A stretch of DNA of 64,000 bases, taken from assembly GCA_015075275.1 (NCBI GenBank), contig JABTUU010000001.1, positions 806,001 to 870,000 on the forward strand. Direction: 5' to 3'. Made by a program: the position numbers and the translations under genes. Under the pieces are notes generated by a model. That model was not told the origin of the DNA. It saw only the letters and a list, made by a program, of their open reading frames with translations, and did no database searches. Source of the stretch: Anaerolineales bacterium (GTDB lineage: Bacteria; Chloroflexota; Anaerolineae; Anaerolineales; Villigracilaceae). Below are positions 57,984 through 61,555 of the stretch, one piece after another (within the stretch, counting starts at the first letter, position 1; each line of letters begins with the position of its first letter).

Positions 57984-58297
57984 GTCAAAGGCAGTGAAGA
58001 GAAGAGTAGATTTGCGACTCTGTCAGCGAGTGTGGGCGCGGTGTGAGCCACATCAGCGAGCAAATCGAAGATCATCTCGGAGCCGTTCCGCTGAAATTAG
58101 TCGAATAGTTTGACGGTCAAATCGTCGGATGGTCGGTTGAGAGTAAGCGAGCCGAAATTGTCCTTCGTTATCAGGACGGGACGATGTCAGTCGTCTACTA
58201 AGCGTCTGCTGGCTATCTCTTTTGGGAATGCGAGCGGAAATCAGAGTGGTACCGCGTGAGTCTTTACTCTCGTCTCTGTGTGAGATGAGAGTTTTTT
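57984..58297 (+). ncRNA. T-box riboswitch controlling ileS (isoleucine specific)
   Basis: The leader contains AGAGTGGTACCGCG at 58243-58256, nearly identical to the T-box consensus AGGGTGGNACCGCG; its UGGU can pair with the ACCA end of uncharged tRNA-Ile. A tandem ATC (58071-58076) in the stem I region is the expected Ile specifier. A transcription terminator follows at 58266-58297 (ACTCTCGTCTC with GAGATGAGAGT, then a run of six T), so read-through should require uncharged tRNA-Ile. Confidence 0.92.
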
Positions 58298-58311: not shown

Positions 58312-58397
58312 ATGTCGTTGCGAGGAGGGCGTAGCCCGACGAAGCAATCTCCGTGTGAGATGAGACTGCTTCGTCGCCCTGCTCCTCGCAGCGACAT
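58312..58397. repeat. Palindromic repeat, TGTCGTTGCGAGGAG type, inside the ileS leader
   Basis: An 86-base element from ATGTCGTTGCGAGGAGG to CTCCTCGCAGCGACAT with long inverted arms (ACGAAGCA paired with TGCTTCGT). It lies between the T-box terminator and the ileS ribosome site (GGAGG before 58415). A 13-base stretch, GTGTGAGATGAGA, occurs both in the T-box terminator (58278-58290) and in this element (58353-58365). Confidence 0.75.
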
Positions 58398-58414: not shown

Positions 58415-61400
58415 ATGTTTAAACCAGTCAACTCCAAACTCAATGTGACTTCGATGGAAGAAGCCATGATGAAATTTTGGAAACAACGCGATATTTTTAA
58501 AAAGACGACCGAGATGCGCGAGGGCGCGCCCGAGTATGTTTTCTATGAAGGTCCGCCGACCGCCAACGGCAAGCCTGGCGTACATCATGTGTTGGCGCGC
58601 GCGTTCAAAGACTTGTTCCCGCGCTACAAGATCATGCGCGGATTTCATGTCTCGCGGCGCGGCGGCTGGGACACGCATGGTCTGCCCGTCGAGATCGAAG
58701 TGGAGAAACAACTCGGCTTCAAAAACAAACAACAGATCGAAGAATTCGGCATTGATAAATTCAACGAGTTGTGCAAGAAGTCCGTGTTCACGTACATTCA
58801 AGATTGGGAGAAACTCACCGACCGCATCGCGTTCTGGGTTGACCTTGAAGACGCCTATGTGACCTACACCAATGACTACATCGAGTCGGTCTGGTGGATC
58901 CTGAAAAACTTTTGGGATAAAGACCTGCTCTTCAAGGGATACAAAGTTGTGCCGTATTGCCCGCGCTGTGGCACGCCTCTTTCGGACCATGAGGTTGCTC
59001 TCGGCTACGACGAAGCGACCGATCCTTCGGTCTTTGTGCGTATGCCGCTGGTGGATAAGCCCGACACGTCGCTGCTCGTGTGGACGACAACCCCGTGGAC
59101 GCTTCCTTCCAACGTCGCCGTCGCCGCGCACCCCGAAGAGGAATATGTCACTGTTGAGCGGGATCACGACGGCAAAAAAGAAAAGTTGATCCTCGTCAAG
59201 TCGCTCGTGCAAAAAGTGTTCGGCGAAGAGGAAGTGAAAGTCGTTGACACATTCAAGGGCAAGAAGTTGAAGGATGTGAAATATCATCCGCTGTTCACGT
59301 TCATGCCGCCAGATAAGCCCGCGCATTATGTTGTGCTGGGAGATTTCGTCACGACGGAAGACGGCTCGGGCTTGGTACACATCGCGCCCGCGTTCGGTCA
59401 GGAAGATATGGACATGGCGAAGCAACACAACTTGCCCGTCCTGATGACCGTTCTCCCCGATGGGACGTTTGTTTCCGAAGTGACTCCATGGCGCGGAGTG
59501 TTCGTCAAAGACGCCGACCCGATGATCATCGAAGACCTGCGCGCGCGCGGACTTCTCTTCAAGGCGGGCGAATATACGCACACGTATCCGTTCTGCTGGC
59601 GATGCGGCACGCCGTTGTTGTATTACGCGCGCGAATCGTGGTACATCCGCACGTCCGCGTTTCGAAATCGCTTGGTTGAATTGAACAACACCATCAATTG
59701 GGTCCCTGAACACACGCGCGAGGGACGCTTCGGTAATTGGCTTTCCAATAATATTGACTGGGCGTTGAGCCGCGAGCGCTATTGGGGCACGCCGCTTCCC
59801 ATCTGGGAGTGTGAGAACAAACATCGCGAAGGCGTTGGCTCGGTGAGAGAACTTTCCGAAAAGGCTGGTAAAGACCTGAGCGAACTCGATCTGCATCGCC
59901 CGTACGTGGATCAAGTCCATTGGGATTGCGCCCAATGCGGCAAGCAGATGAGCCGCGTCCCCGATCTCATTGACGTATGGTTCGACTCGGGCTCGATGCC
60001 CGTCGCGCAATGGCACTATCCGTTCGAGAACAAAGAGAAATTCGAGTCGCAGTTCCCCGCCGATTACATCTGCGAAGCCGTTGACCAAACGCGCGGGTGG
60101 TTCTATTCGCTTCATGCTATCAGCACGTTGTTGTTCGATAAAGTGTCGTTCAAAAATGTTTTGTGCCTCGGCTTGATCCTTGACGGCGATGGGCAGAAGA
60201 TGTCGAAGAGCAAAGGTAATATCGTTGCGCCATGGGATGTGCTGAGCGTTCACGGCGCCGACGCGTTCCGTTGGTATCTCTACACGGCGACTCCGCCAGG
60301 GCAAGAGCGACGCTTCTCTTCCGATCTGGTGGGCGAAGTCATACGCAACTTCACGCTCACGTTGTGGAACGTCTACTCGTTCTTCGTGACGTATGCGAAT
60401 CTCGATAAACCCACCGTCACCACCATGCCGATAGCAACGAGCGATCTCGATCGCTGGCTGTTGTCTGAACTCAATGTGCTTGTCCGCGATGTGACGGATG
60501 CGTACGAAAAATATGACGTGACCAATGCGACGCGTCCCGTCGAAGCGTTCGTGGAGAAGTTGTCCACGTGGTATCTGCGACGCTCGCGCCGCCGCTTCTG
60601 GAAATCCGAATCGGACTCGGACAAGCAAGCCGCCTACTCGACGTTGTACACGGCTCTTGTCACCCTCTCGAAGCTGGTCGCGCCCGCGATGCCTTTTCTC
60701 GCCGACGAGTTGTACCAGAACCTCGTCCGCTCCGTGGACGAGGCCGCGCCCGAGTCGGTGCATCTTGCCGAGTGGCCCCAAGTGATGCCTGAGATGATAG
60801 ACGAGTCGCTGAACCATGATATGGCAACCGTGATGAAACTCGTTTCGCTCGGACATTCCGCGCGGCAGAAAGCGAATCGCAAAGTGAGACAACCGCTGGC
60901 AGAAGCCGCGTTCTCCGTCGGCAACGCGAACGAACGCAAAGCCGTCGAGAATTACGCCGACCTGTTCGTGGACGAGTTGAACGTGAAGAAAGTCCGCTTG
61001 CTGGATGCCGCGACGGAAGCTGTATCCCATACAGTCAAGCCGTTGCCCAAACAGTTGGGACAAAAATACGGCAACAAATTTCCCGCGCTGCAAAAAGCGA
61101 TCCTCGCTATGAACGCGGAAGAAGTTGCGAAGATCTTGATGTCTGGCGAACCGCTGAAAGTGAGCCTTGAAGGAGTTGAGTACGAAATTTTGTCCGAAGA
61201 GGTTGAAGTCAAGACGCAGGCGAAAGAAGGATTCGCAGTCGCCGAAGATGGCGCGTATGTTGCCGCGCTCGTCACCGAGTTGACTCCCGAACTTGTGCAA
61301 GAAGGTCTCGCGCGTGAATTTGTGCGGCGCGTGCAAGACCTCCGCAAAAGCGCGGACTTGGACGTGGCTGACAGGATCGAGCTGTTCGTCGAAGCCTCGG

Positions 61401-61555
61401 CAGGTCTAAGGTCTGCGATTGAAGCGCACAAGGAGTACATCACCGCTGAAACGCTCACATCGAGTCTCCAGTTTGCGAGTCCGCCGAGCGGCGCATCCAG
61501 TGTAGACGATTCGTTCGACGGTGAGACGGTTAAGGTAGGATTGATCAAAAAATAA
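58415..61555 (+). CDS. ileS: Isoleucyl-tRNA synthetase, Thermus type (IleRS2), GVHH signature
   Basis: A 1046-residue class I enzyme that charges tRNA-Ile and edits valine. It matches the Thermus-type in length and wording (VFYEGPPTANG, PRYKIMRG, RGGWDTHGLPVEIE). The first signature, normally HxGH, reads GVHH (55-58): the first His and the Gly are exchanged. The second, KMSKS, is intact near residue 595 in GQKMSKSKGN. The CP1 editing domain (TWTTTPWTLPSN-type) and anticodon-binding parts are present. GGAGG precedes the ATG. T-box regulated. Confidence 0.95.
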   Translation: MFKPVNSKLNVTSMEEAMMKFWKQRDIFKKTTEMREGAPEYVFYEGPPTANGKPGVHHVLARAFKDLFPRYKIMRGFHVSRRGGWDTHGLPVEIEVEKQLGFKNKQQIEEFGIDKFNELCKKSVFTYIQDWEKLTDRIAFWVDLEDAYVTYTNDYIESVWWILKNFWDKDLLFKGYKVVPYCPRCGTPLSDHEVALGYDEATDPSVFVRMPLVDKPDTSLLVWTTTPWTLPSNVAVAAHPEEEYVTVERDHDGKKEKLILVKSLVQKVFGEEEVKVVDTFKGKKLKDVKYHPLFTFMPPDKPAHYVVLGDFVTTEDGSGLVHIAPAFGQEDMDMAKQHNLPVLMTVLPDGTFVSEVTPWRGVFVKDADPMIIEDLRARGLLFKAGEYTHTYPFCWRCGTPLLYYARESWYIRTSAFRNRLVELNNTINWVPEHTREGRFGNWLSNNIDWALSRERYWGTPLPIWECENKHREGVGSVRELSEKAGKDLSELDLHRPYVDQVHWDCAQCGKQMSRVPDLIDVWFDSGSMPVAQWHYPFENKEKFESQFPADYICEAVDQTRGWFYSLHAISTLLFDKVSFKNVLCLGLILDGDGQKMSKSKGNIVAPWDVLSVHGADAFRWYLYTATPPGQERRFSSDLVGEVIRNFTLTLWNVYSFFVTYANLDKPTVTTMPIATSDLDRWLLSELNVLVRDVTDAYEKYDVTNATRPVEAFVEKLSTWYLRRSRRRFWKSESDSDKQAAYSTLYTALVTLSKLVAPAMPFLADELYQNLVRSVDEAAPESVHLAEWPQVMPEMIDESLNHDMATVMKLVSLGHSARQKANRKVRQPLAEAAFSVGNANERKAVENYADLFVDELNVKKVRLLDAATEAVSHTVKPLPKQLGQKYGNKFPALQKAILAMNAEEVAKILMSGEPLKVSLEGVEYEILSEEVEVKTQAKEGFAVAEDGAYVAALVTELTPELVQEGLAREFVRRVQDLRKSADLDVADRIELFVEASAGLRSAIEAHKEYITAETLTSSLQFASPPSGASSVDDSFDGETVKVGLIKK

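Follow-up and report, generated by a model that had tools for sequence, protein, structure and literature searches.

The ileS gene of the window, by which we mean the whole 64,000-nucleotide stretch of DNA analyzed here, encodes an isoleucyl-tRNA synthetase (IleRS) whose first class I signature reads GVHH in place of HxGH. This raises the question of whether the departure is real and, if so, what it would mean for the charging of tRNA-Ile and for inhibition by mupirocin. The gene (58415-61555, + strand) starts with ATG and encodes a full-length protein of 1046 amino acids, identified as ileS by the NCBIfam model and assigned to the type 2 enzymes (IleRS2) by its solved relatives and our trees; against the model (TIGR00392) it scores 996 bits (E 1.4e-299), with a cut-off of 621. 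The signature occupies residues 55-58, in the protein context FYEGPPTANGKPGVHHVLARAFKD, and is encoded on the + strand by the codons GGC-GTA-CAT-CAT (GGCGTACATCAT) at 58577-58588. The KMSKS signature (residues 595-599; 60197-60211, +) is intact, as is the editing-domain motif WTTTPWTL (residues 223-230; 59081-59104, +), which in an alignment is identical to that of Thermus thermophilus. An earlier note on this DNA had pointed out both the exchange and the intact KMSKS, and both read as it described them.

One might suspect that a true HxGH was misread during sequencing or assembly, as this assembly is not free of probable indels: in valS, a single base breaks the frame close to a G run. However, such an error would need several base differences over two codons, and relatives from different assemblies share the motif. 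IleRS is present in almost all of the 60 relatives searched, and 29 of the 30 loci from the same family carry GVHH; the thirtieth lacks its N-terminus. As agreement at the same place in all 29 readable family relatives excludes error or chance for practical purposes, an artifact here is hardly credible. By this comparison, GVHH is the normal state of the family, neither an error nor a private mutation.

The exchange also extends well beyond the family. We searched 298 genomes of the class with a motif pattern that admits HxGH, GxHH, AxHH, HxHH or GxGH, and 260 gave a match; among the roughly 150 class matches listed nearly all are GxHH, with sixteen HxGH and two AxHH. Named relatives, the closest at 83% identity, put the host most likely in Anaerolineales (Chloroflexota), an order read from these neighbors. 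GxHH is likewise found in named metagenome-assembled genomes of Actinomycetota, Armatimonadota, Poribacteria, Proteobacteria, Ignavibacteriae, Bacteroidota, Cloacimonadota, Cyanobacteria and others; the Bacillota rows read HxGH. To regard GxHH as rare would be an overstatement: it is the normal state in the family and in most of the class, and it occurs in many phyla.

To tell IleRS1 from IleRS2, we placed the window enzyme in trees from which the four signature residues were masked. In a FastTree of 102 rows it groups with the IleRS2 enzymes of T. thermophilus (1ile) and Priestia megaterium (8c8u), far from Escherichia coli IleRS1, and sits in a 31-row Anaerolineae clade that is entirely GxHH (support 100). 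IQ-TREE runs place it in the same way. Among solved structures it matches best T. thermophilus IleRS (1ile) and the P. megaterium IleRS2 series 8c8u-8c9d, to which the engineered GVHH mutant belongs, and IleRS1 structures score below 380 bits. At the column of an Asn in E. coli IleRS1 the window enzyme has Ala61, at that of a Phe it has Leu587, and where E. coli IleRS1 has Gln it has Trp131. In P. megaterium IleRS1, Asn70 and Phe586 contact mupirocin (PMC10485003); from motif spacing, we infer that these residues correspond to the Ala61 and Leu587 columns. The enzyme thus groups with the Thermus and Priestia IleRS2 and lacks the mupirocin-contacting Asn and Phe of IleRS1, and on sequence grounds it is a member of the main IleRS2 clade. 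With Gly first and His third in its signature and a place within an all-GxHH clade in motif-masked trees, it is also an IleRS2 of the G/AxHH kind, as had been proposed.

Upstream of the gene lies a T-box leader, a tRNA-Ile-sensing antitermination element (57985-58280, +), which matches Rfam RF00230 with 90.4 bits (E 1.9e-20). The match was seen when the leader was scanned alone; a Rfam scan at default thresholds gave no T-box because 90.4 bits falls slightly under the gathering score of 93, a threshold effect. Upstream of ileS in 13 of 20 scanned relatives, a T-box exceeds the gathering score. The T-box sequence TGGTACCGCG (58247-58256, +) is invariant in the window and these 13 relatives. They also share GAA[A/G]-AUC, which contains the sole invariant AUC (58071-58073, +), making AUC, for Ile, the most likely specifier codon. 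An intrinsic terminator read straight from the sequence follows at 58267-58297 (+), its stem formed by CTCTCGTCTC and GAGATGAGAG and followed by T6. The leader thus joins a covariance-model match to a T-box sequence, a specifier loop and a downstream terminator. Between the terminator and the ribosome-binding site is a copy of a dispersed palindromic repeat (58312-58397) that has 31 BLAST matches in its own genome, itself included. Similar palindromes occupy this leader position in two relatives (L018 and L020), and other sequence is found there in three more (L022-L024); the gene does not need the repeat.

A search of the genome to which the window belongs (2.88 Mb in 2 contigs, 95.7% complete) gave no second ileS: the window gene is the sole IleRS above the cut-off, and the remaining matches read as ValRS, LeuRS and MetRS. 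The valS gene (G000:C2:836601-839239; L009, L010) is read in two frames of 344 and 574 amino acids, and the one-base break that splits it may be an artifact of sequencing or may truly damage an essential gene. The T-box control described in the earlier note is borne out, and the gene, there the only ileS in view, is also the only one found in the genome. Could the window gene nevertheless be a dead or repurposed paralogue, with the true IleRS elsewhere? Dead-looking IleRS paralogues that lack HIGH and KMSKS do occur in two genomes of the order. In the window protein, however, both KMSKS and the editing motif are preserved; its gene encodes the one IleRS found in a nearly complete genome and is governed by an Ile T-box, and GxHH enzymes are active (PMC10485003). 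We consider a dead or repurposed paralogue highly improbable.

We are therefore left with a reading that we hold with strong confidence, in which the window gene is a housekeeping, T-box-controlled GxHH IleRS2 of an Anaerolineales-type (Chloroflexota) bacterium that would still charge tRNA-Ile, would be insensitive to mupirocin and was inherited vertically. Sequence, motif, clade, sole copy and T-box are observed here. The tree points to vertical inheritance of GVHH within the Anaerolineales-type lineage and away from a recently acquired resistance determinant. An intrinsic trait accounts better than an acquired resistance gene for a sole essential gene that has passed vertically down the family and most of its class.

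For catalysis and drug response we draw on published enzymes. G/AxHH was found in 86 of 163 IleRS2 sequences (Brkic et al., 2023, Nat Commun 14:5498; PMC10485003), in a tree that included Chloroflexi and indicated that the motif arose two or more times and reverted once, in Deinococcus-Thermus. The natural ALHH IleRS2 of Deinococcus radiodurans has a mupirocin Ki of 6.6 mM, which becomes 8.1 uM once the motif is HVGH, and changing HVGH to GVHH in Thermus IleRS2 raises the Ki from 0.20 to 35 uM, about 175-fold (PMC10485003, Table 1). GVHH in Priestia IleRS2 raises it from 1.08 to 460 uM, about 430-fold, and both the Thermus and the Priestia GVHH mutants stay active at moderate cost (PMC10485003). 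Structures show the third His replacing the first His in catalysis, and modeling shows it clashing with mupirocin (PMC10485003). The earlier note had mentioned a link between GxHH and extreme mupirocin resistance with activity retained, and this is the work in which it was published.

Judging from the structures solved by crystallography for the mutant Priestia IleRS2, the third-position His of the window enzyme would substitute for the missing first His in catalysis, so that tRNA-Ile would still be charged. The same bulky His would occupy the place of mupirocin, and inhibition would accordingly be expected only at high-micromolar to millimolar drug. Taken together, the window IleRS is probably very insensitive to mupirocin. 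Published Ki values of non-canonical enzymes run from 35 uM (the GVHH Thermus mutant) to 6.6 mM (the natural ALHH Deinococcus enzyme), and that of the window enzyme could fall anywhere between them; that the Thermus value is only 35 uM suggests that the degree of resistance varies with the scaffold. As both the exchange and its link to mupirocin are already published, hyper-resistance is here a sound prediction and no discovery.

Whether mupirocin selected the motif is a separate matter, and one that concerns the evolutionary part of the preferred reading only, leaving its biochemistry unaffected. GxHH may instead be an alternative catalytic arrangement, kept for neutral or other reasons, with insensitivity as a by-product. 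Its fixation in the whole family and in most of the class and its presence in many phyla speak for this, as does the appearance that the state switches both ways, at least one group within the Anaerolineae GxHH clade being back at HxGH. On the other side, selection by natural mupirocin still stands as a published hypothesis (PMC10485003, Discussion). We give the by-product explanation an even chance.

The evidence for such switching comes from seven HxGH rows (families f16, f47, f63 and f65) that are nested in an Anaerolineae clade whose other members, and whose neighbors, are GxHH. The larger trees need at least 6-7 motif changes in Anaerolineae. A single HxGH clade is not rejected in the careful tree (p-AU 0.279), and we therefore claim only at least one switch. 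These placements suggest at least one return to HxGH in Anaerolineae, beyond that in Deinococcus-Thermus, with the direction depending on the rooting. The second residue varies among the canonical Anaerolineae IleRS2, which read HAGH (L161, L162), HPGH (L164-L166), HYGH (L167, L168), HIGH (L155, L156) or HVGH (L160), and several of these rows sit inside the GxHH clade. In pattern searches, HxHH intermediates were absent from 400 Chloroflexota genomes and G/AxGH intermediates from 201; the motif had to stand in a GP..A....[motif]......KD context, which a diverged intermediate could escape. The 172 IleRS-like sequences read likewise included no intermediates, if one truncated row and the two paralogues that look dead are set aside.

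Many Chloroflexota also have a second type of IleRS, which reads DGPITANNPMGVHH and combines GxHH with a second altered signature, all 17 sequences read having xMHKS for KMSKS. This type carries an insert near residue 145 and is the first branch among the IleRS2 rows of the 102-row tree. It is probably the 'minor clade' of PMC10485003, and the papers turned up by a literature search make no mention of MHKS. Its rows are L058-L064, L066, L082, L171, L173, L175 and L186-L190. Both types occur in one genome in several cases (G117, G145, G209 and L082), and at L082 the GxHH and xMHKS enzyme adjoins an ordinary GVHH/KMSKS IleRS. The degenerate paralogues L061 (- strand, 1063 amino acids, genome G055) and L065 (- strand, 951 amino acids, genome G049) come from two families of the same order. 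They have lost HIGH (DFHD and ALAE), have no KMSKS at all and show WS[D/E]xPWKL where WTTTPWTL is expected; in G055 the paralogue shares a contig with a GxHH and xMHKS IleRS. A search for WS[D/E]xPWKL gave one match, probably by chance, in 249 class genomes, and paralogues of this kind look rare. Tentatively, and with rather less confidence than an even bet, we suggest that the Chloroflexota IleRS2 signature may switch between GxHH and HxGH by a concerted change that leaves no surviving HxHH or G/AxGH intermediates, that mupirocin insensitivity may be a by-product, and that a sister type may have altered both signatures (GxHH and xMHKS).

Taken by itself, the window IleRS carries little weight, as its motif is published and its phylum is already in the published tree. 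The G/AxHH motif and its mupirocin link (PMC10485003) and a Chloroflexi ileS T-box (PMC2494555) are known already. It does confirm that entire lineages from the environment subsist on a single IleRS, and that a GxHH one, which marks the motif as a sustainable housekeeping state; such bacteria are probably insensitive to mupirocin by nature. Within one bacterial class, enzymes with natural GxHH and others with natural HxGH can be matched in pairs to learn what the exchange costs. To the published picture our survey adds modest points: a likely return to HxGH in at least one Anaerolineae group, the absence of intermediates from the searches and the GxHH and xMHKS type.

Among known systems, the leader resembles that of Dehalococcoides, where a T-box before the Ile-tRNA ligase gene of a member of the same phylum was published in 2008 (PMC2494555); that organism belongs to another class, and the window leader has a long insert. 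MupA and MupB (NCBIfam NF000257 and NF000258) are mupirocin-resistant isoleucyl-tRNA synthetases related to the window enzyme, but it scores 919 and 911 bits against them, far under the curated cut-off of 1900, and its gene is chromosomal and a sole copy; these scores and the vertical pattern rule out an acquired MupA/MupB-like gene. T. thermophilus IleRS (1ile) is the top-scoring solved relative, with 1043.8 bits over residues 1-820, and is HVGH in the wild type whereas the window enzyme is GVHH. P. megaterium IleRS2 has been solved as wild type and as GVHH mutant (PDB 8c8u-8c8w). The mutant (8c8w) has exactly the motif of the window enzyme and aligns over residues 3-1019, although GVHH was engineered there and the organism also has an IleRS1. 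The published G/AxHH IleRS2 of Streptomyces griseus and D. radiodurans (ALHH) have the same IleRS2 scaffold with the first and third signature positions exchanged, and by analogy mupirocin hyper-resistance would be expected of the window enzyme too (PMC10485003). The difference lies in the host, an uncultured Anaerolineales-type bacterium, and in GVHH itself, which is natural there and was assayed as a mutation in the Thermus and Priestia enzymes.
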